64,000 nt of DNA, from contig OY735209.1 of assembly GCA_963457665.1 (NCBI GenBank), forward strand, positions 4,519,081 to 4,583,080, in the 5' to 3' direction. Every line of letters starts with the position of its first letter. Position 1 is the stretch's first letter. Under the pieces are notes generated by a model. That model ran no database searches and was not told the origin of the DNA. It saw only the letters and a list, made by a program, of their open reading frames with translations. Both the position numbers and the translations under genes were made by a program. Source of the stretch: Thysanoteuthis rhombus. Lineage: Eukaryota; Mollusca; Cephalopoda; Oegopsida; Thysanoteuthidae. Of this stretch, positions 1,072 to 62,538 are shown one piece after another.

Positions 1072-2523
1072 TCATTTCTCTCCAGTGTGTGATTGCATGT
1101 GACGGTTCAAACTTGACTTCTTTGCAAAGGAAGAACCACACACTTCACAAGAATATGGCTTCTCCCCAGTGTGTGTTCGAATATGAACCACCAAATCTGA
1201 TTTCCGTGAGAAGGAAAAGCCACACACTTCACAAAAATAAGGTTTCTCCCCAGTGTGTGTTCGCGTATGTTGGTTCAACTTTGAATTCTCAGAAAAGGAA
1301 GCGCCACACACATCACAAGAATATGGTTTCTCCCCAGTGTGTGTTCGCATATGTCTGATAGAATCTGATTTCTGTGAAAAAGAAGATCCACACACTTCAC
1401 AAGAATATGGTTTATCTTCTGTATGTATTCTTTTATGCTGCCTTAAATTTGACTTCTGTGAAAAGGAAGAGCCACACACTTCACAAGAATATGGTTTTTC
1501 TCCAGTGTGTGTTCGCATATGTCGATCAACATCTGATTTCCTTGAAAAGGAAGAGCCACACACTTCACAAGAATATGGTTTCTCCCCAGTGTGTGTTCGC
1601 ATATGCTGGTTCAACTTCGAATTATCTGAAAAGGAAGAGCCACACACTAAACAAGAATATGGTTTCTCCCCTGTGTGTGTCCGCATGTGTTGGCTCAAAA
1701 TTGAATTATATGAAAAGGATGAGCCACACACTTCACAAGCATATGGTTTCTCTCCAGTATGTGTTCGTTTATGCTGCCTCAAGTTTGACTTTTGAGAAAA
1801 GGAAGAACCACACATTTCACAAGTATATGGTCTCTCTCCAGTGTGTATCCGTATATGTCGGCTCAAATCAGATTTCTGTGAGAAGAAAGAGTCACACACT
1901 TCACAAGAATATGGCTTCTCTCCAGTATGTATACGCATATGTTGCCTCAAATTTGAATTTTGTGAAAAGGAAGAACCACACACTTCACAAGTATATGGTT
2001 TCTCTCCAGTATGTGTTTGCATATGTCTGTTTAACTTTGACTTTTCTAAAAAAGAAGATCCACACACTTCACAAGAAAATGGCTTGTCTCCAGAATGTAT
2101 TCGTATATGTCGCCTTAAATCTGATTTCTGTGCAAAGAAAGAGCCACACACTTCACAAGAATATGGTTTCTCTCCAGTATGTGTACGCATATGTTGCATC
2201 AAATTTGAATTCTGTGAGAAGGAAGAACAACACACTTCACAAGTATACAATTTCTCTCCAGTGTGTGTTTGCATATGTCGGTTCAACTTGGACTTTTCTG
2301 AAAAAAGAGATTCACATACTTCACAAGAATATGGTTTGTCTCCATTATGTGTTTGCATATGACAGCTAAAATCTGACTCAAAAGAAAAATGTGATCTACA
2401 GACGTCACAAAAGTATCGTTTCTCTCCTGTATGGGCTTCAAAGTTTTGGGTCAGAATTGAATTATCAGATAATTCACATTTAAAGGTTTCATGGCAATAT
2501 TCTTTTTCTGAGTAGTCATCCAT
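1072..2523 (-). CDS. C2H2 zinc-finger protein, 16 fingers (gene 1)
   Basis: Predicted nuclear DNA-binding protein of 483 residues. Residues 1-35 are a short leader beginning [14 protein letters not shown]. They are followed by 16 tandem C2H2 fingers of the form Y-x-C-x2-C-x3-F-x5-L-x2-H-x3-H joined by TGEKP linkers, and the stop comes directly after the last HTGEK. Every finger keeps both Cys and both His. Finger 1 (SFESDFSCH) has Phe for the core Leu, finger 11 Val and finger 13 Ser. Helix residues -1,2,3,6 for fingers 2-7 read ESKR, QSNQ, QSDR, then again ESKR, QSNQ, QSDR, so a three-finger block was duplicated. The ATG at 2523 is chosen because the leader aligns with those of genes 2 and 3 and a good splice acceptor lies about 70 bases upstream. 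No KRAB, BTB or other effector domain is visible. The family and DNA-binding role are clear; the targets are unknown. Confidence 0.93.
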
Positions 2524-6960: not shown

Positions 6961-7149
6961 ACTTCCTCTGTTATCTTTCTCGTTATAATTCTACAGACAG
7001 AATGTAAGTGAAAAATATAAGTATGATTTTTATCAAATACTGTTGGTATCTGTATTTAAAAAGTGTAATCACAGCGTATTTTTCTGAGTATTTACGACCT
7101 ATCACGTCTACAAATAAATAAATTAAAGGCAATAAACAAAAAAATAAAT

Positions 7150-7460
7150 AGAAAACTAACCGACTGAATTAATAAACTATCATCAACAAATTTAATTCAA
7201 TTATTCATTATGGATAGTAACGGTAAACAACAGAGGGAATGAATGAATTAATTAAATATGATTTGATTACGATCAAATATGAAGTATTTCACTATTTGTT
7301 CAAGTTAATTAGAAGGATGAAGCTTTAAATACTTACAAGATGATCAAATGCGTAAACTTTGTTGTTGTTTTTTTTTGTATTTGTAAACGATCAGATGGAT
7401 TAAGTTTTTCCGATGATCTGTTTGGTTGGATTAGGATTACTGTGATAATCTTTTAAATGT
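7150..7460 (-). promoter_or_regulatory. Type A promoter / first-exon module of gene 1
   Basis: Conserved module oriented with gene 1. On the minus strand it contains a word resembling AATCCTAATCCA, then GATCATCTT followed by a consensus donor GTAAGTATTTAAAGC; the inferred exon ends at 7337. About 180 bases further, a second shared word, TTCAGTCGGT followed by TAGTTTTC, occupies the place where other copies carry a second donor, but here GTAAGT has become GTTAGT. Related copies lie at 18240-18480, 18650-18990, 20090-20440 and 61855-62140. The role as promoter plus untranslated first exon is inferred from strand and position relative to the finger genes. Confidence 0.6.
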
Positions 7461-9765
7461 TCCAGTTTATGTTGTCTGTCAAACGTCCATTTTGATGTTT
7501 CGTGATATGAATACAACTTCCTGTTGGGCCCACTTCCGCATTTCCTGGCGGTTAGCTAGTAAATTAATCGTCTCTCTAATTCTTAGACGATGTAATACGA
7601 TTGCCTTTTCTATAGTGAATGCGTGGCCTCAATGAAGATGCAAAATGTCTTTAATGGCCTACTCGATCAGAAATGTTGCTCATGTCTGCTTTTGATGATA
7701 GAATCTAATGTTTTTCTGCTTTGTTGTGTTGATACTTTTCGAGGGTGACCAGAACTAAAGTAACAGGAACGAAAGTCACAATCTACGGTCGCACTGAGCT
7801 ACCTGGAAAAAAAATCGAACCGGAAAAAAGTCAACCCCAAAAAGTCATTTCTTGTTTTTTTTTGTTTTGTTTTTTTTCAAATGAGTAATATTTTGATTTA
7901 AATTATACTGAATAAATAATTTCATTTGAAAAAATGAATGAATGAAGGCTTCTTTGTGATTGATTTACCATGTTTTGTCGGGTTCCATGAAGCTTTATAT
8001 ATTAATACATCAATAGTTAAAAAATAATAATGGATGAATAGAAAGAAATGAGTGAATAGTTGTTGTTACTTTGAGAGTCGAAAAAACTAGTCAATTTCAT
8101 CTATGGTTAAAATTTGCATTTACCTAGAACAAACGATTGTTTATTACTGAATTATTAGTATAAAATGAATGAACTGCTATCGTCTGAAATGTTTGAAAAA
8201 GAAATACTACCGTCCCCAAATTTACTTCTTTTTCTTTTTCTTAGCAGAAAGAAGCATTTTTTCAAAGCATTAAAAAAATCAGTCATTTACGTGGTGCACT
8301 TACATTTGCAAGGTTCTAAAGCAAAATAATTAGAATATTTGATCCTATGCAACAGACAGGGATTTTTAAGATCTCCGCTATGTCCCTGTAGCTCAAACCT
8401 CCATTTAACAACTGGGATGAAATCATTCCTTGGGTAAGCATTGCTGGAATATTCCAGAAGTATTTACTTTTTGAGTAATACTTTTATGATGAATTTTCAA
8501 TAGTGTCTGGATACTTCTCTTCTACCATTAGTTTTGTTTATATTCTGCATTGAATGCTTGGAAATGTTTTTCTTTTTCAAAGTATTTCTTAATTTTACAT
8601 CAAAATTCTTCAGCTATGTAAATGTAAAGTAAATGTGAGCATCGGAAATATATTAAATGGATATTTTGTAAGTGTCCAAATACTTGTTTCCCCCCTTCCT
8701 GTTTCAAAATCTTTTTTTGGTCGATACATACTGAGTAACAAGGTGAACAAAGCATGAGTGTTATTTTCAATATTTTAGTGCTAGTTTCATTGCTAAAAAC
8801 TGCTGAATAAGGGGGGGAAAAAGCCAAGAAACTCCAACAAAGTTGCTAAAAATGACCAAAATATTTTAGTTGATTTGGTGTTTTTTTAAATCTTTATATT
8901 ATAACACTCATGACAACGGTTAAGTTTAGCTGCAACAAATTCTGTAAAGTCAGTGCGTAATATACACGAGAGATTCTTCCTAGGTTTTCTTAGCCCATAA
9001 CTGAGGGATTAGGATTGTATATGAGTGCGTATCATACTTGACTATGTATGCCAGGTGATATTAATGCAGACAGAGTCACTTTTGGAATCATATATGTGTG
9101 ATTGATATCTGACATTGTTTAAAAAGAACTGAAATTTTTCTTATAGAAAAAACAAGAACCATTAGTACAATAATGCATCCATCTTCCTTCCATCAATTTC
9201 TAATTTTGAAGAAATTCTAGACAAAGTATTACAAGCATTACTAGTTTTGATAGAAGTGATAAAACAAGAAGGAAAATGAACGTGATGGTTCATTCAAAAA
9301 TCTGGCAATTAGGAAAAAAACAAATTAGAGAGTTTAAATTAAAGTTGTGCATATTTTTTATCAATAATTTGATCTAGGATCTTTGTGCATGGTTATTTGA
9401 TTTGATGAGTGGTCTTTAAATGAATATATTTCTTATTCATCAAGTGAACAGGTCACAATGGAGTTAGATGGCTAAAAATGTAAATATTTATCCATTTCGT
9501 CTAGAAAAAAAGATTCATTTTACAGTGTTAGTTCATGCTAAACTAGTCTCTTAGTTTGTGCCCAGAAGCATTCCTGCTTTTTTTCTTGAAAAATTAGACT
9601 TTTTTTCTTACTGATCATTGCCTTGGAAAATTTTCTTATTTATCACCTTCAACACATGAAGCCACAAAATGTTCATCACGTGATGTTTTCTGGTGAGTGA
9701 CAAACCAGACCTGTTCTTGATTATAGAAGATAAGAACAATGTCTTCAATGACAAATGAAAGTGTT
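7461..9765. other. Intergenic, no gene recognised
   Basis: Directly beyond the module there is a less AT-rich stretch (about 7500-7600), which could be the promoter proper of gene 1. The rest is AT-rich with homopolymer runs and no recognisable coding region. Confidence 0.35.
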
Positions 9766-12208: not shown

Positions 12209-13240
12209 TCATTTCTTTTCAGTATGAGATTGCAAATGACGATTCAAACTTGACTTCCGTGAAAAGGAGGAGTCACACACTCCACAGGAATAAGGTGTTT
12301 CTCCAGTATGTATTCGCATATGCCTCTTCAAAGTTGAATTTAATGAAAAGGAAGAACCACACATTACACAAGAATAAGGTTTCTCTCCAGTGTGTGATCG
12401 CATATGCTCCACCAAAGTTGACCTTTGTGAAAAACAATAGCCACACACTTCACAAGAATATGGTTTTTCTCCAGTGTGTTTCCGAATATGCACCATCAAA
12501 TTTGACTTCACTGAAAAGGAGGCATCACACACTTCACAAGAATATGGCTTCTCTCCAGTGTGTGTTCGCATATGCTCCACCAAATGTGACTTCCCTGAAA
12601 AAGAAGAGCCACACACTTCACAAAAATATGGTTTCTCTCCAGAATGCTTCTGCTTATGGTACCTCATACTTGATTTGATTGAAAAGGTAGAGCCGCACAC
12701 TTCACAAGAATATGGCTTCTCTCCAGTGTGTATTCGCCTATGTTGGTTCAAATATGATTTATCTGAAAAGGAACAGCCACACAGTTCACAAGAAGATGGT
12801 TTCTCTCCAGTATGGGTTTGCATATGCTTGTCTAAATGTGATTTCCGTGTGAAAGAAGATCCACACACTTTACATGAATATGGTTTCTCTCCAGAGTGTG
12901 TTCGCATATGCTTTGTCAAAGTTGAATTTATTGAAAAAGAAGAGCCACAGACTTTACAAGAATATGGTTTCTCTCCAGTGTGTGACCGCATATGCTCCAC
13001 CAAATTTGACTTTTGTGAAAAAGAAGAGCCACACACTTCACAAGAATATGGCTTCTCTCCAGTGTGTATTCGAATGTGCACCACCAAATTTGACTTCAGT
13101 GAAAAGGAAGAACCACATACTTCACAAAAATATGGCTTTTCTCTAGTGTGGGCTTTTAAGCATTTTTTTAAATCTGCTATCTTAGCCAATTCACATCCCC
13201 AAGTATCAAAAGGATACTTTTCTTCTGAGAAGTTTTCCAT
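12209..13240 (-). CDS. C2H2 zinc-finger protein, 11 fingers (gene 2)
   Basis: Predicted nuclear DNA-binding protein of 343 residues. The leader MENFSEEKYPFDTWGCELAK is followed, from about residue 37, by 11 complete C2H2 fingers with [17 protein letters not shown] spacing. The stop follows HTEKK and sits at the same place as in gene 1, so the 3' ends are homologous. Helix residues -1,2,3,6 run LSNV, QSNE, ISTK, RSHK, DSYQ, ISSY, GSHE, VSNV, QSTE, LSTR, RSSR; fingers 8-10 echo fingers 1-3. All zinc ligands are present. Finger 6 uses Met for the core Leu. The ATG at 13240 is supported by the leader it shares with genes 1 and 3 and by a splice acceptor 21 bases upstream. A decayed sister copy lies directly upstream. 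No effector domain is visible. Confidence 0.92.
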   Translation of the reverse strand: MENFSEEKYPFDTWGCELAKIADLKKCLKAHTREKPYFCEVCGSSFSLKSNLVVHIRIHTGEKPYSCEVCGSSFSQKSNLVEHMRSHTGEKPYSCKVCGSSFSINSTLTKHMRTHSGEKPYSCKVCGSSFTRKSHLDKHMQTHTGEKPSSCELCGCSFSDKSYLNQHRRIHTGEKPYSCEVCGSTFSIKSSMRYHKQKHSGEKPYFCEVCGSSFSGKSHLVEHMRTHTGEKPYSCEVCDASFSVKSNLMVHIRKHTGEKPYSCEVCGYCFSQRSTLVEHMRSHTGEKPYSCVMCGSSFSLNSTLKRHMRIHTGETPYSCGVCDSSFSRKSSLNRHLQSHTEKK

Positions 13241-13280
13241 ATTTTTTGGAGGGGGAAGGGGCTACAGAAAAAAAATGATA
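13241..13280 (-). promoter_or_regulatory. Splice acceptor before gene 2 ATG
   Basis: On the minus strand the tract tcattttttttctgtag ends at 13262, giving an inferred exon start at 13261 and a pyrimidine-rich 5' UTR of 21 bases before the ATG. The sequence does not resemble the acceptor shared by gene 1, gene 4 and the relics, so this site may have arisen after the neighbouring copy decayed. Confidence 0.5.
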
Positions 13281-13364
13281 GAACAATCAAGTTCTTCTAA
13301 TTATATAAGTTCATAAAATATTTCACAAAAAATATCTGCGTACAACATAAATATTTTTCAAGTT

Positions 13365-13788
13365 TTGTGATTTCATGTATTGCCTCAAACTTGACTCCAA
13401 TAAAAAAGAAGGTTCATTCACTTCACAATATATGCTTTGTCTCCGGTGTTTCTACAAATGACACTTGAAAAGAGGATGCACTCACTCCCACATATGATTT
13501 CTCTCAAGTGTGTGTTTGAATATGTTCTACCAAATATGACTTTGTTGAAAAGGAAGAGAAACGCACTTCACAAGAACGTCTCTTTATGATGTTTTCACAG
13601 ATGCATAACAAAATTTGACTTTAAAAAAAGATCCATCGAGTTCACAGAAAAGTTTCTCTCTAGTATGAGTTTTTTCAAGTTCCTTTTTCAAAACTGGACA
13701 ATCAAGCAATTTACATCCACAAGTTTCCCTATATTTTTTGATTTTCCAGGTAACCAAGTTTAAAGAATATTTTCTCTAAGCGGAAAAC
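13365..13788 (-). pseudogene. Decayed zinc-finger gene copy beside gene 2
   Basis: Minus-strand relic of a whole unit. At 13788 is an acceptor (ccttttcttttacag) followed by GTTTTCCGCTT, matching the gene 1 exon start. Then comes a leader remnant reading roughly ETCGCKLLDCPVLKKELEK and a THTREK linker near 13660. About three to four eroded fingers follow down to about 13365, with lost Cys codons and shifted frames. Most initiator-region codons of the leader are damaged (ATAGG in place of ATGG). The relic is a tandem duplicate of the gene 2 type. Its exon start could still be used as a non-coding upstream exon for gene 2, which is speculative. Confidence 0.75.
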
Positions 13789-18240: not shown

Positions 18241-18480
18241 GAATATGGTCACGGATCCTTGATATTGGGATCGGAAAATTATTACGATTGAATATGAATC
18301 AATCATTGGAGAGACTTTAAATACTTACAGGATGATTAAATGAGTAAACTTTAGTTGTTTATGTCTTTGAAAAAGATGGAATGGATTAGGATTAAGTATG
18401 ATAATCTGTTTAGTGCTTTCAAGCTGTGTTGTATACATTTCGTCAATTTTGTGGAAGGACTTTAGCAGTGTTGCCAAATT
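18240..18480 (-). promoter_or_regulatory. Type A module, inner copy, upstream of gene 2
   Basis: On the minus strand: AATCCTAATCCATTCC, then an ATCATCCT exon end at 18329 followed by the donor GTAAGTATTTAAAG. Compared with the copy at 18650-18990 it is partial: the second donor word is missing. The two copies form a tandem duplication of the presumed gene 2 promoter. Confidence 0.55.
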
Positions 18481-18649
18481 TATTTCCCACTTTACATCCA
18501 GAATTTAAAAAAAAAAACAGCAAACATCTTCCTTCTATTGTTTGCAACTTTCTCAAACACTGTAGTCCTTGAATTTCTAATTGGTCCAAACGGCCTACTA
18601 TAATCTTAGAGGGAAAGATATTCCATCATGCCCCAAAATGAACAAACAC

Positions 18650-18990
18650 AATAAGAAGAAAATAAATAGAAAACTTACCGACCTAATTATTAAACTATCG
18701 ATAACAAATTTTATTTAATTATTCAACATGGATTTACAAGAAACAAAAAATATGAGTAAATTACAATCGAATATGAAGCGATCATCGAATAGACAGAGTT
18801 TGTAACTAATTGTTCAAGTTGATTCGTAAAATAAAGGTTTAAACACTTACAAGATGATCCAATGTGCACAGTTTGATGGTTTGTGTATTTGAAAAAGATT
18901 AAATGGATTAGGATTAACAACGATAATCTGTTCGATGCTTTGGGGCCGCGTCGTGCGTTCATTTTTCGGAAATGAACTTTTGCGTTCGAC
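18650..18990 (-). promoter_or_regulatory. Type A promoter / first-exon module of gene 2
   Basis: A full module on the minus strand. GC-rich sequence (around 18940-18960, with several CpGs) precedes AATCCTAATCCA. The inferred exon then ends GGATCATCTT at 18850, with the donor GTAAGTGTTTAAAC. A second conserved word, GGTCGGTAAGTTTTCTATTT, gives another donor-like site with exon end at 18679. The distance to the gene 2 coding exon is 5.6 kb. Whether the second donor is alternative or ends a second small exon cannot be decided here. Confidence 0.62.
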
Positions 18991-20089: not shown

Positions 20090-20440
20090 CCGTGGCCCTC
20101 GTCTTACTGTTAGTAAACGACACGAGACAACATCAACAAGACGGCCTTTAAGTATCAAACATTATCGCAGTTAATCTTAATCCTAATCCATCCTATCTTT
20201 TTCACAAACAAAAATCACCAAAATGTTCACTTTTGATCATCTTGTAAGTATTTGAAGCTATATTTTATTATTCAATTTGAACAAATAAACTCAGTCTTTT
20301 CGATGTTCGCCTTATTGGTACATTCATTTAGTCACACAATTGTTGATCGTTGAAATTCATGATGAATAATTCAATGAAATTTGTTTGTGATAGTTTAAGA
20401 ATTCTGTCGGGAAAATTTAAAATTCGATTTTGCAAACTAG
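20090..20440 (+). promoter_or_regulatory. Type A promoter / first-exon module of gene 3
   Basis: Plus-strand copy facing gene 3. AATCTTAATCCTAATCCATCC, then TTGATCATCTT with the inferred exon end at 20243 and the donor GTAAGTATTTGAAGC. The later word ends ATTCTGTCGGGAAAATTT, so the second donor present at 18679 and 62114 is lost. It is an inverted copy of 18650-18990, so genes 2 and 3 have divergent promoters about 1.1 kb apart. The distance from the donor to the gene 3 coding exon is about 3.5 kb. Confidence 0.62.
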
Positions 20441-22189: not shown

Positions 22190-22437
22190 CAGTGACAAGA
22201 CTAGGATTATATTCTTACAAGTTTTTATGACAACCCCTCCTGGCAGGATGCAAGTTCACCAAAGGTGTTCCTCCAACCTAATCACACAGCTTAGAGTGTA
22301 CTCAATTAGCTGCTGAGTGTACAGGAGAATCTCTTCAAATTCATAGTTTTCCACACTTTTCACTCATACCTGGAATCAAACCCAGGACCTTCTGTGTTTA
22401 AGGCAGACGTGCTGACCATTACACTATTTCAGCTGAA
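22190..22437 (-). mobile_element. tRNA-derived SINE
   Basis: On the minus strand from about 22434: an A-box-like TAGTGTAATGGTCAGCACG, then an anticodon-arm-like TCTGCCTTAAACACAGA, then a B-box-like GGTCCTGGGTTTGATTCCA, as in a tRNA gene head. The acceptor stem cannot be closed, and an unrelated tail of about 170 bases follows, down to about 22190. That is the structure of a SINE rather than a functional tRNA. Tail family not recognised. Confidence 0.7.
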
Positions 22438-23264: not shown

Positions 23265-23700
23265 ATGTTCCAGCTTGAAAGACATCCTATGACTTGAGTA
23301 GATCATCATTTTTCCGTGTTTTTCCTCTTCTAAGCCACAACAACAACAATCTTTGCCTAATTTGAATGATCATCATTTCTCTTGGTGACCTAAAAATGTG
23401 GAAAACTAGTCAGGAGGAATATTGTGAAACTTATGGATACAAATTTGAGACAAATTTTTCCAACTGTGTGTTTCTTTGTTTTTAACAAATTCATATTTGG
23501 TCAAACAGTTCAACTCACAGAGGAGAGAAATTATATATGTGGAGTGCATGGATTTTCCTTCACAGAAATTTTGGTGCAACATTTGTAAAATCATACTTGA
23601 GACGAATTAAATTTTTGTGAAGTGGGCATCTTGTCCGTTTCACTCTTAAGTTCGAGACAATATATGGAATCACAAACTGGAAAGAATTTCATCAATTTAT
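23265..23700 (+). pseudogene. Decayed zinc-finger gene copy beside gene 3
   Basis: A plus-strand relic of a full unit. An acceptor (agttttttaacag) ends at 23264, followed by ATGTTCCAGCTTGAAAGA, matching the gene 1 and gene 4 exon starts. The UTR words GATCATCATTT and GGTGACCT occur near 23370-23390. The frame from 23397 reads MWKTSQEEYCETYGYKFETN, the leader of genes 1-3, then ends at a stop about 33 codons on. Near 23517-23570 a HRGEKLY linker and finger-like residues follow in a shifted frame, with fainter remnants to about 23700. It stands directly upstream of live gene 3, as the relic at 13365-13788 does for gene 2. Confidence 0.75.
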
Positions 23701-23795: not shown

Positions 23796-24662
23796 ATGGA
23801 AAACTATGCAGAGAAAAAACATAGTTTTGAAACTTGTCAATATAAATTGGCAAATAATTCAACTCCAAAAAAAAGCATAAAAACCCATACTGGAGAGAGA
23901 CCATATTCATGTGAAGTGTGTGGCTCTTCCTTTTTAGAGAATACACATTTAAGCAAACATATGCGAACACATACTGGAGAGAAACCATATTCCTGTGAAG
24001 TGTGTAAATCTTCCTTTCCATATAGGTCCAATTTAGTGGAACATGTGCGAACACACACTGGTGAGAAACCATATTCTTGTGAAGTGTGTAACTCATCCTT
24101 TTCAGTAGAGTCATCCTTGAATAGACATATGCGAACACACACAGGAGAGAAGCCATATTCTTGTGAAGTTTGTGGCTATTCCTTTTCAGAGACCTCACAT
24201 TTGCGCCGTCATATGCGAATACACACTGGAGAGAAGCCATATTCTTGTGAAGTATGTGGTTCTTCATTTTCACTCAAGTTAAGTTTGGGTCGACATTTGC
24301 AAACACACACTGGAGAGAAACCATATTCTTGTGAAGTGTGTGGCTTTTCTTTCACTCAGAAATCAGAATTAGTGAAACATATGCGAACACACACTGGGGA
24401 AAAGCCATTTCCTTGTGAAGTGTGTGGCTCTTATTTTTCACGGAAGTCACAGTTGGTTGAACACGTACGAACACACACAGGAGAGAAACCACATACTTGC
24501 AATATGTGTGGCTCTTCCTTTTCACGAAGTTCAACTTTGAAGAGGCATATGCAAACACACAGTGGAGAGAAACCATATTCCTGTGATATGTGTGCCTCTT
24601 CTTTTTCACAGAAGTCAAGTTTGAAGCGTCATATGCTATCACACATTTGGGATAAAAGATAA
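23796..24662 (+). CDS. C2H2 zinc-finger protein, 9 fingers (gene 3)
   Basis: Predicted nuclear DNA-binding protein of 288 residues. The leader [20 protein letters not shown] is followed from about residue 36 by nine intact C2H2 fingers with TGEKP linkers, ending HIWDKR. Helix residues -1,2,3,6 run ETHK, YSNE, VSSR, ESHR, LLSR, QSEK, RSQE, RSTR, QSSR. The ATG at 23796 is preferred because its leader aligns with genes 1 and 2. The frame is open slightly further upstream but without an ATG. A weak acceptor (gattcaccag, ending 23764) lies 31 bases before the ATG. This is the only finger gene of the five on the plus strand. The array contains no obvious recent finger duplication. No effector domain is visible. 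Confidence 0.92.
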
Positions 24663-27140: not shown

Positions 27141-28042
27141 TTTCTAAATGGCAGCTATGTGCAACGTATTGAAAAATTCATGATGACTTGAAATTTTTCA
27201 GCTAAACAGCCTCACTATACCTTTCATTATTTTTCCAAGGGTTTCACAAACAACTGAACAACATGTTATCACAATGTTCTAACTGATACTCTCTATAGCC
27301 TTCTTCTGCTTTACATTCCATACCATAATAGACAGATCTATTTTTGTAAAATATCTTAGCGAATATACTGATCAGTTTCCTTCGTTTTAACAGACGTGTC
27401 CCATACATTCGATTCTGTGGCATTCTTAGCAAACTATAAAACACAATTTATTCCATATAAGCTGAGATGCACTTGAATTCTTTCTCTGCTATGCTAAGAA
27501 ATCTACACTGGCTTGACTTATACATTTACCTCTTGGGCTGAAATATGTTGCTTACATCAATTTTCTCTCCATACAGTATTTCTAGTGCATTGTTTGAACA
27601 TCTTCCCAATGAGAATATTGTGAACGTATCTTCCATCAGTAATTTTCTTATAGTATTTGTCAATATTTTCAGTTCAAATTCCTTTGTTAAAAACTGTAAA
27701 ATTATGTTTTAAATGTATTCATTGATTTTTATGTTGTCGGTAAAAAGATTCGTAACTATTAAATGAATAATGAAGAATATTAGAAAAAAATAAGAAAAAG
27801 ATCTCTGCATAATCATAACATCAAAACTCAAAATCCATAACTGTATATAAATAGAATTACTAAGATTGCTGCAAAGATAACTGGAATAATAAAAACCAGA
27901 TTCAAGTTCCTTGGTATAAAAACGTTTAGCATACTATATACAACATATATAAGACTCCAAATTGAATAAGCAGTGCAAGCATGGTCTTCACACTGCAAAA
28001 ACGATATAAAAGAATCAGAAAATATCCAGGGAAGAGCAACAA

Positions 28043-28315
28043 AATTTGTTCCAGGACTGAAAACACCTCCCCTATGATTTTTGTGTGTGTGTCCGTCCCA
28101 ACTATGGCCCTTGACTGGATGTCGTCTATCACAGAAAGACGCCCAGTATCCCCATCTTTGAGGCTCTCATCTCTGTTTTTTTTTATCAATTTCTGAAACC
28201 AATGTTCAGTTGTATATTTGTTGACGGTCCCTTGGCAAAATATTTCGTTGACATTAAAAGCAGTTTCCATTGCTTTACTCCCATGCGGAAATAATATTAC
28301 GAAACTACTCAAAAT
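28043..28315 (-). mobile_element. Mariner transposase relic (N-terminal helix-turn-helix part)
   Basis: Within a longer minus-strand open frame, residues reading GSKAMETAFNVNEIFCQGTV, then TTEHWFQKLIKKNRDESLKD, then GRLSVIDDIQSRAIVGTDTH match the mariner pattern GSNATETARxINEVFGEGTV-xxRTVRRWFQKFRSGDxSLED-GRPSxVDDDQLKALVExDP. The catalytic domain does not continue in frame. The flanking parts of the same open frame (hydrophobic stretches on both sides) look unrelated to the transposase. This is a dead fragment of a plain DNA transposon. Confidence 0.72.
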
Positions 28316-28609
28316 TGCTTTTTTCCAACGTTGATTTGACAGCCTCAAATAAATCAGAATGAATAGTGAAAAAAATGTTCTGCTTGAACAGAATAGAATT
28401 CCCACTTTAAAATGGTATATTCCGTGAATATAGTTGAATAATTCTCTATCCCAAATGGGCATCGAATTTTGAAATAACAAAAAAAACCCCGCAATTATCT
28501 TAGCACCAACCTTATGATTTATTTTAATTATTTCTTCATGTTTTAAAAATCATATTTTTTTTTATACGGTTGTCCCTGCATAAAAAGCAATTAATGAACC
28601 CTCATAATT

Positions 28610-28965
28610 TGTTGAATGTGAAGGATTATAATTTTCTTGCTGACCTGAAATGAAGGAAATATCAAGAACTACAGAAAAATATAGTATGGGAACTTTCGAT
28701 GTGAATCATAGATCAAATCACTTAGAAAAAGCACTCACACAGCGTATTCAGAGGAGAAACCACATTCTTGTGAGATATGTGATTTTTTCTTCAAGTCAAA
28801 CTTGAATTGACACATGTGAACATATGCTGGAGAGAAAACATATTCTTAAGAAGTGTGTGGCTATTCTTTTTCAAATAAATCGCATTTGGCGAGTCACATA
28901 AAGACACACACTGGGAAGAAGCCATATCTTTGCAAGATGTGTTGTTTTCCCTTTTCTTCTTCACT
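28610..28965 (+). pseudogene. Zinc-finger gene relic, plus strand
   Basis: Begins with a UTR remnant (attttcttgctgacctgaaa) identical to the sequence before the gene 1 ATG. Then come finger remnants: EEKPHSCEICDFFFKSNLN near 28755-28810, with a stop in place of Arg before the first His; a finger whose first Cys codon is a stop; and an intact stretch [20 protein letters not shown] at about 28856-28915, then [13 protein letters not shown]. About three fingers are recognisable and the rest is lost. The copy descends from the type 1-3 lineage. Confidence 0.75.
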
Positions 28966-31900: not shown

Positions 31901-32955
31901 CTGACTAATGGAACTGTACAGAATGATGATCATTTAATCATTTATTTTGTGGATTGGGAAAATAAGAGAAATAGATAAGAAACTGGGATGAGTAAGCATC
32001 TCTGCAGACTCTGCTGATACATTTACCCCCTCCAGGCATGATGATAAGAGTCACTGACAGCCTGATCCCAACTGTATGCAGGATGTACACCATTTGCAAA
32101 ATTGGTACCAATCAGTCAAATTCATTGGTCTTAATTATCTCAATCAATCAAAAACAAGCTTATGAATCCACACAGCAAAGGGAAGATATGACCGACTTCT
32201 TTTTCATTTGTTTTACAATGTGTGATACTGATGTTATTCGAATTAAAAAAAAAAAAGAACAGGTATACCAAGCGAAATGGAATCTAGTGACTAAATTAAC
32301 AGCAAATTTGAGGGATTTACTTTTGAAATAGTGCAAGCAATACAAAAAAAAGTCTTTAAAATGAATGAGCTGGATATAAATACATCTGATGTACATATAA
32401 GTGATTTAGATGAATCTACCAGTGAATCCGAGAGAGAAAATAACTGAGACCAACCACATATGCATCATTATAATTCTCTATCTGATACACGTAATTCTTA
32501 AATATGAGGATTTAGTTAGGATTTGAAGATCAGTATAAAACCATAGACAAAATATCTCCACGTTGTACGAAGTGAATAAGAAAAATCGGAGAGAAGACAT
32601 TTATTAGACGTTGCAAAAATAACATTTATTTTCTGAGGAAAATTTTCCAACAATATTTACCAGCTGATGAATTTTAAAAATAAAATCATGTACAAGAAAC
32701 AATGCATTATAAAATTACAGGATAACAATTCATAACCTTATCAAAATCATCTTCTTCGTTACTCTTGAGGGACATAAATGCAGAGTACATTTCTGAAAAG
32801 TCAATTTGTTAATATAAACTTATCACTGAGTATTTCTATCCAGTTTGTAAAAACAAATATTTTCAAATAACTTTGCTTCTTCATGAATATTACTTTGAAA
32901 ATATGAATAATGTGAAAATGTTCCCCTGAAAATAGCAAAAAATATGTTTTATTCA
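28970..32955. other. Intergenic, no gene recognised
   Basis: AT-rich. Several frames of 60-97 residues occur (for example 29644-30253 and 32038-32331), but none has recognisable motifs, and their composition is that of random AT-rich sequence. Confidence 0.35.
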
Positions 32956-32959
32956 AGTG

Positions 32960-33270
32960 TGTCAAATTGAGAATTTTCAAAGCCTCACTGAAAAGAAAAA
33001 TTACACACTTCTAAAAAGAATGTACTCAAACACATCGCAAAAATATAAATTTTTGTGGACAGGAGTCTTGGTGATTTTAATATGAAAGTTTTTTTAAGAG
33101 TGTATCAAACTTAACAAAGTTCATCACCAAAGTTGCATAAGTTGACTCAATTTTAACTTAGTTCTGAATACAGATCCACAATGCACACAAGAATATGGTT
33201 TCTCACAAGTGTTTGCAGATGTATAACCAAAGATGACTTCTGCACAAAGGAAGATCTACCTTTTTTTAAT
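32960..33270 (-). pseudogene. Eroded 3' tail of gene 4 finger array
   Basis: Minus-strand finger remnants beyond the gene 4 stop. Around 33170-33260 a shifted frame gives FVQKSSLVIHLQT and a linker-like continuation, and fainter traces occur near 32985-33060. The same tail, with shared words such as gaattttcaaagc-cactgaaa and ctcagtatg-ttcttta-a-atgacttat, follows gene 5 at 48815-49740. An ancestral array was longer, and both genes inherited or accumulated 3' decay. Confidence 0.6.
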
Positions 33271-33281
33271 ACAAATTATAT

Positions 33282-34652
33282 TTAGTGTTTCTCAGTATGC
33301 TTCTTTAAAGATGACTTATAAGAAAATACTGCTCCACACTGGTGACAAGGATATGGTTTTTCTCCAGTGTGTGTTCGCATATGTTTCCCCAAGTTATACA
33401 TCAGTGAAAAGGTAGATCCACACACCTCACAAGAATATGGTTTCTCTCCTGTGTGTGTCCTCATGTGTCTTTTCAAATCTGACCTTTCTTTGAAAGAAGA
33501 TCCACATATTTTGCAAGGATGAGCTCTCTCTTCGGAGTGGGTTCGAATATGTCGTGCCAGACCTGAACTATGTTTAAAGGAAGATCCGCATGCATGACAA
33601 GAGTAAGGTTTTTCTCCAGTGTGTATTCGCACATGAAGGACCAAGTCTTGCTTTCTTGAAAAGGAAGATCCACACACTTTACAAGAATAAGGTTTCTCCC
33701 CAGTGTGTTTTCGCATATGGTACACCAAATTTATGTTTCGGGAAAAGGAAGCATCGCACACTTCACAAGAAAATGGTTTCTCTCCGGTATGTTTTCGGAT
33801 GTGTTGCACCAAATTTGACTTCACTGAAAAGGAAGAGCCACACACTTCACAAGAATATGGTTTCTCTCCAGTGTGTTTTCGTAAGTGGATTATTAGATGT
33901 GAATTTTTTGAAAACGTTGATGCACATACATCACATGAAAGCGGTTTTCTTCCAGTGTGAGTTTTCATATGTAAAGCCAAAGTTGACTTATGTGAATAGG
34001 AAGATCCACAAACTTCACAAGGATACTTTTCTTTAGTGTGTGACAAGATATGTGTCTTAAGAGATGACAACCCTGTAAATGTACCTCCACACTGTTGGCA
34101 AGAATATGGTCTCTCACCAGTATGTGTTCTCATATGTGACACTAAACTGGATTTCCATGAAAAAGAAGATCCACATGTTTTGCAAGAGTGAGGTTTTTCA
34201 CCAGTATGTATTCGCATATGTACCACCAAATCTGACTTAAGAGAAAAAGAAGATCCGCACACATCACAAGAATGTGGTTTCTCTCCAGTATGTGTTCGCA
34301 TGTGTTTCTTCAAATCTGAATTTTGTGGAAAAGAAAATGCACATATTTTGCATAGATGAGATCTCTTTCCAGAGTGGATTCGCATGTGTCGCTTCAAACT
34401 GGAATTTTTCGAAAAGGAAAATCCACAAACATTACAAGAATAAGGTTTTTCTTCAGTGTGTGTTTGCTTATGTATTTCTAAATCTTGCTTTTGTGGAAAG
34501 GAAGATCCGCACACTTCACAAGAATAAGGTTTCTCTCCAATATGCTTTCTCATATGGTCAACCAAATCTATATTCTGTGTAAAGGAAGTTTTGCACACTT
34601 CACAAGAAAAGGCTTTCTTTTCCTCTTCCATTTGAATGACACTTTCAGACAT
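33282..34652 (-). CDS. C2H2 zinc-finger protein, 16 fingers, divergent array (gene 4)
   Basis: Predicted nuclear DNA-binding protein of 456 residues. The N-terminus is short and charged ([14 protein letters not shown]), with no MENxxEE leader, and is followed from residue 15 by 16 C2H2 fingers to the last residue ([10 protein letters not shown]). All zinc ligands are present. Fingers and linkers are much more varied than in the other genes: linkers include HTEEKPY, HSGKRSH, HTKEKY (one residue short) and HSEERAH. Helix residues -1,2,3,6 include QIDD, QQDI, WSSS, GSST, RINY, HSGR and LYNK. No internal finger duplication is apparent, which suggests an older, stable array. The ATG at 34652 is preceded in the same exon by about 100 bases of UTR and a conserved acceptor. 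Finger remnants follow the stop, so the array was once longer. Confidence 0.92.
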
Positions 34653-39379: not shown

Positions 39380-39665
39380 TTGATTTACGGGACAGGGAAA
39401 TGAAGAAGACATCAAACACCATTCTTGTTTTTGAATGGAATTGACACTGAATTTCATAGATAGGAACTATCAGTCATATTTCCTTACTTACCTTTCGTAT
39501 AATGAGGAAGAAGTTGAAATAAGTTGTTGATGTAATTGCCCGACTTCTTTGTTGTCAAATTTCTGTCGTCTGAATTCGGTCGTTTTGTTTGGATTTTTCA
39601 GTCAATTTACCACAATCAGTTCATTCAATCGAACTTCATGAAAAATGGATTCAAAGACGGACAGA
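39380..39665 (-). promoter_or_regulatory. Type B promoter / first-exon module of gene 4
   Basis: Matches 56690-56965 upstream of gene 5. On the minus strand the inferred exon ends ATACGAAAG at 39492 and is followed by the strong donor GTAAGTAAGGAAATATG. Upstream in the exon are shared words around gaattcggtcgttttgtttgg (plus-strand reading) and tgttgatgt-attgccc. The intron side shares catcaaac and atagataggaa-tatcag. Promoter plus untranslated exon is inferred; the distance to the coding exon is 4.7 kb. Confidence 0.58.
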
Positions 39666-41459: not shown

Positions 41460-41725
41460 CATTTTACTTTTAGCTAAAAATGGCCAAAATCGGCTAAATT
41501 ATTTCATTTCCTGCTAACTTTATTGCTAAAAATGTTTTATATACTCATTTAAAGTTGATTTATCAAATCAAATAGGGCTACAGAACAAGATATTAAAGAG
41601 AATAAAACATTTACTTTTTCTTAAATTACTAATTATTTTCAAAAACTGGCCAGATTTTCAGCTATTGTAGATATTTATCAAATACATTGGGAGAAAAATA
41701 ACAGCCAGCAACACTGCATTGTCTA
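41460..41725 (+). repeat. Repeat G, copy 1
   Basis: Matches the reverse complement of 59115-59405: ggctaaa-tcggc, ctaact-tattgctaaa, tgttttatatactcattta, gagaataaaac-attactttt, cagattttcagctat. It ends near gccagcaacactgca, and cagtgttgcca words also occur elsewhere (18470). About 270 bases, non-coding; probably a short interspersed or MITE-like element. Confidence 0.55.
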
Positions 41726-46163: not shown

Positions 46164-46181
46164 AAAAAAAAAAAAAAAAAA
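46164..46181 (+). repeat. Poly-A run of 18
   Basis: Eighteen consecutive A at the left border of the repeat E array. It could mark the end of a retroposed copy, but no SINE or LINE body precedes it. Confidence 0.7.
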
Positions 46182-46189
46182 TGGTAATA

Positions 46190-47740
46190 TATCTCTCAAT
46201 CAAAAACGAATTCCTAGATCCACCCGAAAATTTGATTACTTTTTTCTTACAATGTGGCTAACGTTTCCTCAAAAGGTCATTGAAATTCAGAGAACTCTTG
46301 AAGTTATCGCATGCAGAAATTTGACCAAAAACAGAGAGAGATATCTATGTGTTTTTTTCAGATTTGCTCATCTGCCTACACATTATCTCCAAAATTTCTC
46401 AATGAATTTTGTGAAACAGTAAGCTATAGTGTAAGGGAGAAGTGATTCAATTTTTGGGTGGATCCAGGGACTCATTTTGGAGAAATTTTTCCATCTTTAA
46501 TGTTTCATACATTTCTGCATTCATTCCTGACTGTCCACATGGTATCTCTGGAAATTTTGATGGGATCACGCGACAGGAGAATTGATTCAATTTTAGAGTA
46601 GATCCAGGAATTTTATTAGGTTGAAAAATATTTCGTGCTTTTTTTTAAATACATTTCTGCACTCTCCATATGATATCTCCAAAAGTTCTAAATAAATTCT
46701 AATGAAATTTGTGTTATGACAAGGCACTGGGTAAGAAGCCACTGAATTTTGGAGCAGATCTAGGAATTTGTTCTTGATTGAGAGATACTTTTCTGTTCTA
46801 ATGTTTTATACATTTCTCGATTTATTCCTGACTGTCCACATGATATCTTCGACAGTTTTCAATGAATTTCAATGGAATTTTATGGATGGGTTTGCTACCT
46901 AGTAAGGAAGAATTGATTAGATTTTTGGTTGAATCCATCAATTTGTTCTTTATCAAAAGATATTTTTGCATTCATTGGGAATTAATTTTTGAATTCGCCC
47001 TTGTCTGCCCACATATTTTGCGGAAACGTAGGGCACCAAACACAGACAAATTCACTGAATTTTGAAGCAGATCTAAGGATTTGTCTTTGATTTAGAGATA
47101 TTTTTTTAATTTGAATATTTAATATATTTCTGTATTCACTCCTCTCTATCTACATAATATCTCCAAAAGTTCCCAATGAATTTCAATAAAGTTTTGTGGA
47201 CAGGTGAGGCACATAGTAAGATTTGATTAAATTTTGGGGTGAATCCAGGATTTTTTTTGGATAGGGAGATATTTTGTAGGTTTCTTTTCGATCTCTGTAT
47301 TTACTCTTGACTCAGAACACAACATCTCTAAAAGTTCCCAAGGAATTTCAATGAAATTTTGTGGATGGTTGAAGCACATATGTTAAATGTGATCAAATTT
47401 TGGAGCAGATCCAGTAATTATTGATTGAGGGATAGTATTTGTCCTTACATTTTTCATTCGTCAAAGAATGTCAACACAATCTTATGGAAATGTGGATCAC
47501 AGGAAAAGGGAGAGATGGTCAAATCTGAGGGTGATTCAAGGAATTGGTTTTAAATTAAAAGATATTCTTAGCATTATTTTTTGTACATTTCTACATTCAC
47601 TCCCGTTTGTCAACATATCTCCCAAAGTTCCCAATAAATTTCAATGGAATTTAATGAAAAAGGGGGCAATAGACTAGGGAAGAAGTGAATAAATTTTGGG
47701 ATGGATTCATTTACTATTGGGGAAAACTGTACATTTGCAG
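46190..47740 (-). repeat. Repeat E array, central cluster
   Basis: About nine degenerate units in head-to-tail order. Landmarks such as ctgtccacatgatatct occur near 46375, 46537, 46665, 46830, 46992, 47145, 47310 and 47600, spacing 128-165 bases where adjacent. Each unit has catgatatctccaaaagttc, then caatgaatttcaatgaaatt, then a ttaaattttgggg(t/c)gg-type word, a ccaggaatt word and a long T-run. Satellite-like and old, since the units differ strongly. No coding function. Confidence 0.7.
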
Positions 47741-48260: not shown

Positions 48261-48814
48261 AGAAATGCAAAATCAATTGCATTGTAAATAATCTGGATCA
48301 CATGATCTGGCAGACCAGCACAAGTGAGACGTCACCGAAGAAAAATACACCATCAACAAAGCACCGTTACATCCTAACAATCTCTCTGTGGAAAACTCAC
48401 ACATTTTTGTCTTCACCGATCTGTAAAACTTGTGAATATACATCACCAAATGACTATATCTGACAGCCAACCCTGTAGGTTTGTTTCGGCAATTGAAAAT
48501 TGTGGGTTTTATAGCAGAGGCACTTAATGTGAGTAGGACGTTTTCTTTACCACATGCACTTCAGTGACAATATTTTTATTATTATTTTGACTGAATAACC
48601 AAAACTGACTGAAAATACTACAACTACAGCATTCAAGTCAAGTAGTTTTTTTCCTGTCATTCAACAGGAAATAGTGTAACTTTTTATGCAAAAATCATTA
48701 ATGGTGTATTTACTTCTGGGTCAAAATCTCATTTGGTAGGACAATAAATACCGCTTGAAGAATTGAGAATGATGTGAAAATGTGAGTCTAAACATATAGA
48801 AATAATGTCTCTTT

Positions 48815-49740
48815 CAAGTGAGTTAAAATTGAATTTTCAAAGCAGCACTGAAAGGAGAAAGTATACACAGTTCTTAAAAATGTTTTGGAGGCTATTTTGA
48901 TGTATATTTTGTGACAGCAACAACCCCACTCATGACAACCCTCTCTAATCCCTTCTCCTGAACTGGAAAGTTTCCATGTGTTTTTGAGACTATCATGATG
49001 TCTTTCAACCTGAAAACATATCAACACACCACAAGCTTCATACTCTTGTGGATAAAAGTCTAGATTATTTTGAAATGTAAATTATTTGAGTGTTTCACTT
49101 GTGAATAAATTTTTCCTTCAAAATATCTTTGCATATGTTTGACCTTGTTTCACAGATCCACAATGTTTATAAGAATATGGTTTCTTACTAGTTTGCATTT
49201 GCATATATACAGAAATAGAGAACTGCAAGAAAAAGATCCACACAATCCACAAAAATATTAAATATATTTGGTGTCTCAGTATGTTTCTTTAAAAATGACT
49301 TATCGAAAAATGCTACGGCAGACTGTTGCCGAGAAAATAGTTTATTTTCAGTGTGTGTTTCCATGTTTCACCAAATTTGACATCCCTGAAAAGATAGATC
49401 TAAACACCTCACAGGAATATGGTTTTTCTACAGTATGTGTTTGCATGTGTATTACTAAACTTATGTAAGAAGGAAGGGTCACATCTAACACCTGAATAAG
49501 GTTATTATTCTTGAGTATGCCTGCATGTTGAACTCAATTTTTATGTAAGTGAAGATTCAGACATTTCACAAAAAAAAAGGTTTTTCACCAATGTGTGTTA
49601 GATTATGTCCTTGAAATCACATAATATGAAAGAGAAGATCCACACATTTCACAATACAAATTGTACTTAGTGTCCCAATATGCTTTTTTAAACATTACAA
49701 ATCCAAAAATGCTCCTTCACAATATCAACTACAATAACGG
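48815..49740 (-). pseudogene. Eroded 3' tail of gene 5 finger array
   Basis: Minus-strand finger and linker traces run about 0.9 kb beyond the gene 5 stop. Examples are 49130-49200, 49300-49480 (reading cacctcacaggaatatggtt, the complement of a CEV linker region) and 49500-49735. Stops and frame shifts are frequent. The tail matches the one after gene 4 (32960-33270), including non-finger words at 48826-48870. The gene 5 stop itself arises where the linker after the last HMQK is damaged. Confidence 0.7.
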
Positions 49741-49746
49741 TTTTCT

Positions 49747-51234
49747 CTAGTGTTTTTGCATATGTCTCATCAAATTTGACTTCTGTGTAAAATTACATTC
49801 GCATAATTCACAAGAATAAGGTTTTTCACCAGTATGCGTTCGCACATGTTTCACCAAATTTGACTGTTCTGAAAAGGTAGATTCACACACCTCACAAGAA
49901 AATGGTTTCTCTCCAGTATGTTTTCGCATATGTATCACCAAACTTGACCTTTGTGAAAAAGAAGAATCACACATTTCACAGGCATAAGGTTTCTCTCCAG
50001 TATGTGTTCGCATATGTCTCACCAAATCTGATTTTTGTGAAAAGGAAGATCCACACATCTTGCAAGAATAAGGTTTCTCCCCAGTATGTGTTTGCATATG
50101 CATCACTAAACTTGATTTCAGTGAAAAGGAAGATTCGCACATTTCACATGAATAAGGTTTCTCTCCGGTGTGCGTTCGCATATGTGTTATCAAATGTGGT
50201 CTATGTGAAAAAGTAGCTCCACACACCTCACAAGAATATGGTTTCTCGCCAGTATGTATCTGCATATGCGTCAATAAATTTGATTTCAGTGAAAAAGTAG
50301 ATTGACACATCTCACAAGAAAATGGTTTCTCTCCAGTATGTGTTTGCATGTGTGTCATTAAATTTGACTTCTGTGAAAAGCTAAATCCACAAACCTCACA
50401 AGAATATGGTTTCTCTCCAGTATGTGTTTGCATATGTCTCACTAAATTTGACTTCTTTGAAAAGGTGGATTCACACACCTCACAAGGAAATGGTTTCTCT
50501 CCAGTGTGAGTTCGAATATGTCTCACTAAAATTGACTTCTGTGAAAAGGAAGAATCACACAATTCACAGGAATAAGGTGTTTCGCCAGTGTGTATTCGCA
50601 TATGTCTCACCAAATCTGATTTTTTTGAATAGGAGGATCCACATATTTCACAGGAATATGGTTTCACTCCTGTATGTGTTTGCATATGTATCACTAAACT
50701 TGAATTATGTGAAAAGGAAGATTCACACATTTCACAAGAATATGGTTTCTCACCAGTATGCGTTCGCATATGTATCACTAAACTTGACTTTCGTGAAAAG
50801 GAGGACTCACACATATCACAAGGATAAGGTTTCTCTCTAGAATGTGTTCGCATATGCCTCACTAAAACTGACTTATGTGAAAAGGTAGATCCACACGTTT
50901 CACATGAATAAGGTTTCTCTCCAGTGTGTGTTCTCATATGTGTCACCAAATGTTGCCTACGTGAAAAGGTAGAGCCACACACCTCACAAGAATATGGTTT
51001 CTCTCTAGAGTGTGTCCGTATATGCGTCACTAAATTTGAATTATCTGAAAAGGAAGATCCGCACATTTCACAAGAATATGGTCTCTCACAAGTATGTGTT
51101 CGCATATGTATCCTTAAACTTGACTTCTTTAAAAAGGGAGATTTACACAATTCACAGGAATAAGTTTTTCCACCTGTATGTATTTGCATATGTCTCACCA
51201 AATATAACTTTAAGAAAGATGAAGAGCCATACAC
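49747..51234 (-). CDS. C2H2 zinc-finger protein, 17 complete fingers (gene 5)
   Basis: Open frame of 495 residues, nearly all fingers: a partial first finger (GSSSFLKLYLVRHMQIH, second Cys replaced by Tyr), then 17 complete C2H2 fingers with mostly TGEKPY linkers and variants TCERPY, SREKPY and TGVKPY. Helix residues -1,2,3,6 for fingers 7-11 (HSSI, KSDR, QSIR, KSNR, QSNT) resemble those of fingers 14-18 (LSSM, QSDR, QSSI, ESNK, QSNR), so a seven-finger step was probably duplicated. There is no leader: the first ATG lies inside the broken finger, and in-frame stops stand just upstream. Either translation starts at this internal ATG, an exon further upstream supplies a start, or the gene has recently lost its 5' end and is becoming a pseudogene. 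The array itself has no internal stop over about 1.5 kb, which favours recent or present function. Confidence 0.8.
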   Translation of the reverse strand: MYGSSSFLKLYLVRHMQIHTGGKTYSCELCKSPFLKKSSLRIHMRTHTCERPYSCEMCGSSFSDNSNLVTHIRTHSREKPYSCEVCGSTFSRRQHLVTHMRTHTGEKPYSCETCGSTFSHKSVLVRHMRTHSREKPYPCDMCESSFSRKSSLVIHMRTHTGEKPYSCEMCESSFSHNSSLVIHMQTHTGVKPYSCEICGSSYSKKSDLVRHMRIHTGETPYSCELCDSSFSQKSILVRHIRTHTGEKPFPCEVCESTFSKKSNLVRHMQTHTGEKPYSCEVCGFSFSQKSNLMTHMQTHTGEKPFSCEMCQSTFSLKSNLLTHMQIHTGEKPYSCEVCGATFSHRPHLITHMRTHTGEKPYSCEMCESSFSLKSSLVMHMQTHTGEKPYSCKMCGSSFSQKSDLVRHMRTHTGEKPYACEMCDSSFSQRSSLVIHMRKHTGEKPFSCEVCESTFSEQSNLVKHVRTHTGEKPYSCELCECNFTQKSNLMRHMQKH

Positions 51235-51420
51235 ATTACAAGAATGTTTTTTACTAGTATATGTTAGTCAATGTTTCATCAAAGATGGCTTCATTGAAAG
51301 AAGAGATCAATACTTTCCACAAGAAAGTTTTTCTTCATATGTATTCCTCATTCCTGGCTTCTCGACGGTGTGTGCTTGCCTGTGATTTACCAAATATATT
51401 TTCTGTAAGAAAAAACAAAA
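51235..51420 (-). pseudogene. Eroded 5' fingers of gene 5
   Basis: Continuation of the array toward the 5' side. The minus strand gives a linker-like HTVEKP near 51370, a KPSLMKH segment near 51290, then a stop, and a TYTSKKHSC linker leading directly into the open frame. About two fingers are damaged. No MENxxEE or MSES-type leader is found further upstream. Confidence 0.65.
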
Positions 51421-56689: not shown

Positions 56690-56965
56690 CGACATCAAAC
56701 GTCTTTTTTTTCCTCAGTTTTTATAAGGAATTGACGTCGGTGATAAAAGTTGTGTCAAAAGACGAACTATTTGCTAAATCTTATAGATAGGAATTATCAG
56801 TCGTATTTTCTTACTTACCTTTCATATTATGAAGAAGAAAGAAAGGAAGGAAAGAATGTTCAGAAAGTTGTTGATGTCATTGCCCCTCTTCAAAGTCTTT
56901 GTTGTCAGTTGCTGTTGTCCGAATTCGATCGTTTTGTTTGGATTTTCCCGTCAATTCCCCCTATT
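56690..56965 (-). promoter_or_regulatory. Type B promoter / first-exon module of gene 5
   Basis: Match to 39380-39665. On the minus strand the inferred exon ends TATGAAAG at 56819 and is followed by the donor GTAAGTAAGAAAATACG. Exon-side words gaattcgatcgttttgtttg and gttgttgatgtcattgcccc match the gene 4 copy. The distance to the gene 5 finger exon is about 5.4 kb. Confidence 0.58.
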
Positions 56966-59114: not shown

Positions 59115-59405
59115 ACCCAGTATTGTAAAACCAGCCAATTTCAGCCAGATTCCCTCAGATGTTTACCAAATTCTTGTATGCGATAGCCAAAAATCTAACC
59201 GATTTGGAAAAATATTTTTCTAGTTAATAAAAGTAATCGTTTTATTCTCGTTATAAATTTGTTCCGGGTTCTTTGTTATGTTATTTTATGAGTGATCTAT
59301 AAATGAGTATATAAAACAATTTAGCAATAAGTTGGCTCGAAATTGAAAACTTTTGCCGGTTTTAGCCATTTTATAAACAATATATGTCGTAAAATGCCCA
59401 TCTCT
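59115..59405 (-). repeat. Repeat G, copy 2
   Basis: Inverted relative to 41460-41725, which it matches over most of its length (word list given there). Confidence 0.55.
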
Positions 59406-61854: not shown

Positions 61855-62140
61855 AGTCTACTTGTCCAAAAGAGACACAAAGATAACAACACCGTCTCAT
61901 GTATCAAATACACAAACCACCAAAGTTTACACATTCGATCATCTTGTAAGTATATGAAGCTTTATTTTATCAAATCAGCTTGAACTGATAGAAATAAAGT
62001 CAGTCTTTTCGACGACTGTTTCTTATTAGATCGTAATTTACTCGGATTTCTCATTCAGTCACTTTATTCTATATTGAATTAAAATTTTTGGGTGATAGTT
62101 TAATAACTCAGTCGGTAAGTTTCCTATTTATTTTCCCATT
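61855..62140 (+). promoter_or_regulatory. Type A module, orphan copy facing right
   Basis: Plus-strand copy. ATACACAAACCACCAAAGTT, TTCGATCATCTT with the inferred exon end at 61945 and the donor GTAAGTATATGAAGC, then ACTCAGTCGGTAAGTTTCCT with a second donor at 62114/62115. Both donors are intact, as in the gene 2 copy. No finger gene follows within the remaining 1.9 kb, so the dependent gene, if any, lies beyond the window. Confidence 0.58.
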
Positions 62141-62538
62141 ATTGAGCTTGAACAAAACATAACAATAATTCTAGGATATACGATGGGATAGCATTTTCAC
62201 TTTAACTAAAAGAAATCATTTTTTAAAACCATTTTTATTTGTTTACTTTTCACATGGAATTAATTGAAATAAGAAATATCAAAATAGAAAAAGTTGCAAC
62301 TTGTAGACGAATTTCCACTTTGTTTATAAGTACTCGGTGGATTCGGTCAGTTTGTTGAAATTCCCCAGACAATTGATTGGTAATCTTTGAAATTTTTGTT
62401 ATCTGCACCCAAAAGTCCATTAAAATCACAAATAAAAAATGAATGAAATGTCATAAACTTTGTACAATTAGAAAGAAGTGTTGCATGAAATTTTTAATCA
62501 TCCTTTTGACGCAATATTTGCAAACGGGCTATTATTAC

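Follow-up and report, generated by a model that had tools for sequence, protein, structure and literature searches.

Five long open reading frames (ORFs) encoding C2H2 zinc-finger arrays lie in a 64,000-nucleotide stretch of Thysanoteuthis rhombus DNA (contig OY735209.1, positions 4,519,081 to 4,583,080; referred to below as the window), and blocks of similar sequence recur kilobases upstream of these arrays. The question raised by this locus is whether the blocks are part of the finger gene unit, as starts or first exons copied together with the fingers, or repeats that lie there by chance. The window has a G+C content of 33% and is free of N. All five ORFs gave strong matches to zf-C2H2 and zf-H2C2_2 (Pfam), and as neighbouring ORFs with many tandem fingers they form a cluster of duplicated poly-C2H2 genes. 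The N-termini of genes 1-3 are related, while in gene 5 the 5' fingers are degenerate and the start codon is ambiguous. Homology outside the fingers, as expected of gene-unit duplication, was found in the form of a block (type A) in genes 1-3 and another (type B) in genes 4 and 5, and also in about 290 bp ahead of the coding exon that genes 2 and 3 have in common at 68% identity. The coordinates of genes, blocks and finger gene remnants are collected in Table 1. Downstream of the stop codons of genes 4 and 5, a further stretch of 115 columns (32905-33017 and 48767-48879) is 75% identical and is possibly 3' UTR.

Table 1. Zinc-finger genes, type A and type B blocks and finger gene remnants in the window (position 1 is the first letter of the window; in donor sequences, the slash marks the presumed exon/intron boundary)
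Feature	Position	Strand	Details
Gene 1 coding exon	1072..2523	minus	C2H2 array, 483 aa (MDDYSEKEY...); candidate exon 2 start 2595
Gene 2 coding exon	12209..13240	minus	C2H2 array, 343 aa (MENFSEEKY...); candidate exon 2 starts 13335, 13261 or 13788
Gene 3 coding exon	23796..24662	plus	C2H2 array, 288 aa (MENYAEKKH...); candidate exon 2 starts 23710 (weak site) or 23265
Gene 4 coding exon	33282..34652	minus	C2H2 array, 456 aa (MSESVIQME...); candidate exon 2 start 34753
Gene 5 open frame	49747..51267	minus	C2H2 array, 506 codons; candidate exon 2 start 51402
A1, block of gene 1	7130..7422	minus	Presumed exon 1 end 7337; donor GTAAGT 7336-7331
A2, block of gene 2	18649..18932	minus	Presumed exon end 18851; donor 18850-18845; second GTAAGT 18678-18673
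A2b, partial type A copy (exon part and donor)	18315..18414	minus	Presumed exon end 18329
A3, block of gene 3	20177..20413	plus	Presumed exon end 20243; donor 20244
A5, pointing off the right window end	61904..62150	plus	Presumed exon end 61945; donor 61946; second GTAAGT 62115
B4, block of gene 4	39447..39607	minus	Presumed exon end 39492; donor AAAG/GTAAGTAAG
B5, block of gene 5	56774..56956	minus	Presumed exon end 56819; donor AAAG/GTAAGTAAG
Second exon 2 start remnant, just ahead of gene 3	23346-23445	plus	E 6e-9, exon 2 profile
Decayed C2H2 finger gene	28559-28960	plus	Exon 2 start remnant (E 1.4e-7, exon 2 profile), then stop-broken fingers
Decayed finger remnants downstream of gene 5	49500-49660	minus	

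The region 7100-7500 was used as a query against the window and gave four further matches (68.9-157 bits), at 18649-18932 (73.0% identity over 300 columns, E 2e-40), 20184-20410 (70.4% over 243 columns, E 2e-22), 61906-62134 (70.8% over 240 columns, E 5e-17) and 18315-18414 (75.5% over 106 columns, E 8e-14), and comparison of copy with copy extended A3 and A5 to the limits given in Table 1. The ten pairs among the five type A copies were 70-82% identical over 56-300 columns and scored 68.9-167 bits, with the exception of one pair at 57.2 bits (18315/61904), while the top match to three queries (A1, A2 and B4) in 40 Markov-resampled windows scored 37.4 bits. The type A repeats are thus well above this random-sequence null. 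An earlier note on this DNA had described five copies of about 300 bp; five related blocks do exist, but the copy that it placed at 18240 amounts to about 100 bp plus a 35-bp remnant, and similarity begins at about 20177 and at 61904 rather than at 20090 and 61855. The shared motif that it reported at a consensus donor was confirmed, GATCATCTT being exact in four of the five copies and represented by AATCATCCT in the fifth, with GTAAGT intact in all five. When GATCATCTTGTAAGTATTTRAAG was sought with up to three mismatches, five occurrences were found in the window against none in 100 shuffles. The 13-base core CATCTTGTAAGTA alone, with up to two mismatches, gave seven matches where 3.24 were expected, a number reached by five of 100 shuffles and hence not significant, so the evidence resides in the whole block and not in its short core. 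A profile of the five copies recovered its own members, as it must by construction, and its next best match in the window had an E value of 0.2. Viral contigs scanned for the type A core yielded no matches, a result that is uninformative on animal genomes. The partial copy A2b is probably a local duplicate, and it is possible that it serves gene 2 as an alternative first exon.

Conservation within type A has two peaks. The first and best-conserved stretch is GATCATCTT/GTAAGTRTTTRAAG, with the slash at the presumed exon/intron boundary, and the second lies 130-185 bp inside the presumed intron. Across the four full copies in gene orientation (A2b was omitted from this four-way profile), mean pairwise identity was 24% (-110 to -86), 37% (-86 to -60) and 50% (-60 to -30) upstream, 73% (-30 to -8) and 90% (-8 to +14) around the donor, 57-76% from +14 to +130, 83% (+130 to +160) and 73% (+160 to +185) in the second peak, then 53% (+185 to +210) and 47% beyond; pieces drawn four at a time from 26-32 kb (thirty sets) and put through the same aligner averaged 45%, with a maximum of 55%. 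The profile contains few gaps ahead of the donor despite a 6-base insertion of A1 in that part, so that its identity from -30 upwards is understated. The upstream limit of similarity was taken from local pairwise alignments, in which it reaches from about 40 bp (pairs with A5) to about 90 bp (pairs with A2b) from the donor. On the other side of the donor, the intron side, lie 207 of the 293 conserved bases of A1, and little is left of the intron part in A2b, whose exon part and donor are retained. Within the window, the second peak sequence GATAGTTTAATAATTCAGTCGG (three mismatches or fewer) is found in the four full copies only, where 0.01 occurrences would be expected, and the peak ends in GTAAGT in A2 and A5, two of the four. 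The role of this second peak may be that of an alternative donor, of a start site or of a regulatory element within the intron.

The upstream regions were then compared in gene orientation, same-sense matches with their midpoint inside a finger array being dropped, and this comparison revealed that genes 4 and 5 carry the other block type, B, which is new here. B4 and B5 are 74.6% identical over 185 columns in the same sense as their genes. Their similarity continues for about 45 intron bases after the donor, and type B has no distant second peak like that of type A. A direct relationship between the two types was sought in eight pairs (each of the four full A copies against both B copies, with 200 shuffles per pair), only A1-B4 lying at the 95% level of the shuffles (33 against 33). 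As no pair exceeded the shuffled maximum, A and B were treated as unrelated.

At the presumed exon end, the donor GTAAGT is present in the sense of the gene in all five type A and both type B copies. The seven blocks total 1,505 bp, or 2.4% of the window, and hold nine of its 32 GTAAGT hexamers (both strands counted), all nine in block sense. The presumed exon segments are free of ATG in five of the seven blocks, A3 having one ATG and B5 two. With regard to the acceptors, the candidates that would start exon 2 at 2595 in gene 1 and at 13335 in gene 2 align with each other, and that of gene 3 (23710, a weak site) is two columns off. Gene 2 possesses a stronger-looking acceptor at 13261, and further acceptors occur at 13788 for gene 2 and 23265 for gene 3; with several acceptors to choose from in these two genes, sequence alone does not settle the junctions. 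Directly observed are the repeats with their strand and position, the donors, which are intact, and the candidate acceptors.

The last presumed exon base lies 4,814, 5,611, 3,553 and 4,840 bp upstream of the coding start in genes 1, 2, 3 and 4, respectively, and 5,552 bp upstream of the open-frame start in gene 5. Since genes 4 and 5 carry type B donor blocks, all five long finger ORFs are served, each having a same-strand donor block 3,553-5,611 bp upstream when A and B are taken together. Random placement of six loci on either strand served all five genes in 0.000245 of 200,000 trials, a post hoc figure, as it was the comparison of gene units that had led to B. With the four type A loci alone, the fraction of 300,000 random trials in which at least three of the five genes were served was 0.028, which is a weak test. 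In these placement tests A2b was left out and A5 was placed randomly though unable to score in the real data, and the genes were the five long open ORFs, excluding the decayed gene at 28.6-29.0 kb. No pair of A or B blocks in opposite gene orientation was found in the window at E values up to 0.05, while other shared pieces do invert. The four copies said earlier to stand upstream of a finger gene on its own strand do so (four of five), although two of them both belong to gene 2. The proposal of the earlier note that the blocks belong to the gene unit is thus supported by the agreement in strand and the similar distance in genes 1-3, the lack of inverted pairs and the presence of the other donor block at the equivalent relative place in genes 4 and 5.

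We consider that the blocks are probably non-coding 5' UTR first exons with a donor, of two types, inherited through duplication of gene units. The unit copied along the chromosome would comprise exon 1, an intron of about 3.5-5.5 kb and a single coding exon, and a common block for each gene is most simply explained by the copying of genes as whole units. The donor of the block would be spliced to the acceptor just ahead of the coding exon, so that the start and the splicing context would be kept while the finger arrays change. Of the two types, between which no relation could be demonstrated, A would belong to genes 1-3 and to one outward-facing copy and would additionally carry a conserved stretch of the following intron, and B would belong to genes 4 and 5. 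We infer transcription from a start within the block or shortly before it, and selection acting on the block. The outward-facing A5 predicts a finger gene beyond the right window end. The blocks had been called a promoter/first exon module, and of the two terms a first exon with donor is the better fit, because the copies cease to be alike some 40-90 bp ahead of the donor; inspection by eye revealed no conserved TATA box in this part. The idea of one start common to the whole cluster has to be given up, as the paralogs have at least two block types. Several points stand against the first-exon reading. Similarity reaches further into the intron than it does upstream, a simple exon 1 does not account for the second peak (+130 to +185), and the decayed finger gene at 28.6-29.0 kb has no block that the A and B profiles could find between it and gene 3. 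The ambiguous acceptors of genes 2 and 3, the ATGs in the presumed exons of A3 and B5 and the limits of the placement tests, weak for type A alone and post hoc for both types, also count against it.

The two block types could also be envisaged as two unrelated start cassettes that define two regulatory classes of paralogs, each cassette being copied together with its fingers, with the second peak of type A as an extra regulatory or alternative splice element. We regard this wider proposal as possible but doubtful.

It is improbable that A and B are instead remnants of dispersed transposable elements that came to lie upstream of finger genes by chance. The full A copies, at about 240-290 bp and 70-79% alike, do resemble old repeats, an extra partial copy is present at 18315, and the window holds other shared pieces, some of them inverted, such as 41477-41665 with 59183-59372. 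However, each of the five long finger ORFs has its block on the same strand and at a similar distance (for type A alone this is weak, at 0.028), the exact donor is present in both families, and the upstream edges are ragged, ending at about 40 to 90 bp depending on the pair. Inverted repeats in the four of the seven blocks examined were imperfect, A+T-rich or short, and lay away from the block ends (for 7050-7480, five of 13 pairs were listed). Neither a position and orientation independent of the genes nor defined termini, as would mark a dispersed element, were found.

Other elements of the window are of a different kind. Ahead of the genes, three pieces recur between an A gene and a B gene, oriented alike with respect to the gene and at 70-79% identity (6576-6937/38679-39027, 17157-17323/55701-55864 and 16039-16310/35127-35428); since inverted matches exist as well (E 7e-4, 0.026 and 1e-6), they may be dispersed repeats. 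Related repeats are densely clustered in both orientations at 46180-47720 and 59577-60870. An ORF at 27926-28549 (minus) has no Pfam match at E 0.001, and contains a stretch that resembles the N-terminal part of a mariner transposase. Outside the blocks, a tRNA-like match at 22361-22433 (minus; RF00005, 44.8 bits) was the sole Rfam match at gathering thresholds, and ARAGORN with the bacterial code called no tRNA in the window, including at this position; a tRNA gene and a repeat derived from a tRNA are both possible.

A reading that we hold to be somewhat less probable than transposable element remnants places the working element of type A at its second peak, as a core promoter or regulatory site, or takes the second GTAAGT of A2 and A5 as the alternative donor of a longer exon. 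Transcription would then start at +130 to +185, and the donor-like core would be an upstream site. The conservation of the second peak (83% and 73% pairwise identity in its two parts) and the confinement of GATAGTTTAATAATTCAGTCGG to the four full copies speak for this reading, and the peak contains TCAGTC, which we take by eye to resemble an Inr, with AT-rich bases about 30 bp before it. The TATA-like bases, however, vary between A copies, the second GTAAGT is retained in only two of the four full copies, and type B possesses a donor yet has no such distant second peak.

The least probable reading in our view is that the similarity of the A blocks is a mere leftover of duplication, with no selection on the block. 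In its favour, fourfold sites of the fingers agree at 69-70% among genes 1, 2 and 3 (n 765-1,415 comparisons), close to the block's own 70-76%, and the 290 bp ahead of the coding exon are common to genes 2 and 3. However, codon bias inflates finger fourfold identity, which within gene 1 (0.69) does not exceed that between genes. Outside this stretch of 290 bp, the A gene introns showed no similarity but for short matches with E values of 0.015 or weaker, and in the N-terminal 50 codons fourfold agreement was 3/8, 2/6 and 5/8 (too few to decide) against 90% in the donor core. With finger fourfold agreement so close to whole-block identity, it is only the block peaks that suggest selection; the type A block as a whole does not appear clearly slower-evolving, and its two peaks do.

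If the blocks are first exons, as we prefer, they would supply a sequence tag for the true 5' ends of finger genes, and the paralogs could be sorted by start-site class and their expression compared class by class. Most probably this cluster adds one more instance of duplicated gene units in which the 5' exon was retained. Duplication of this kind is a well-known process; the less ordinary part is the occurrence of two different 5' blocks within one cluster. A search of titles and abstract openings found no description of such blocks, which is not proof of their absence from print. Coleoid cephalopods have large lineage-specific C2H2 expansions, whose duplicates can be tandem and may share regulatory elements, according to PMC12513265; from the main text of that study, the words promoter, exon, UTR and intron are absent. 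As cephalopod C2H2 paralogs are placed there in different co-expression modules, and a regulation switch among them is predicted (PMC12513265), simple co-regulation of the paralogs is disfavoured. In mammals, KRAB finger genes occur as tandem repeats in clusters (PMC10547256), and the present cluster is like these in its neighbouring poly-finger genes, whose upstream exons were presumably copied along. It is unlike them in that no KRAB was among the Pfam matches of the five ORFs (E 0.001, best 25 families per protein). The zebrafish FiNZ genes (FZNFs) are described as having one class with a shared promoter architecture and two waves of expression (PMC10547256, citing Hadzhiev et al. 2019, 2023). 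In contrast to the classes of the squid cluster, known here from sequence alone, the FiNZ classes were defined by expression and by a TATA box in one class. Like the FiNZ genes, however, those of the window are clustered paralogous C2H2 genes with 5' ends that fall into more than one class.
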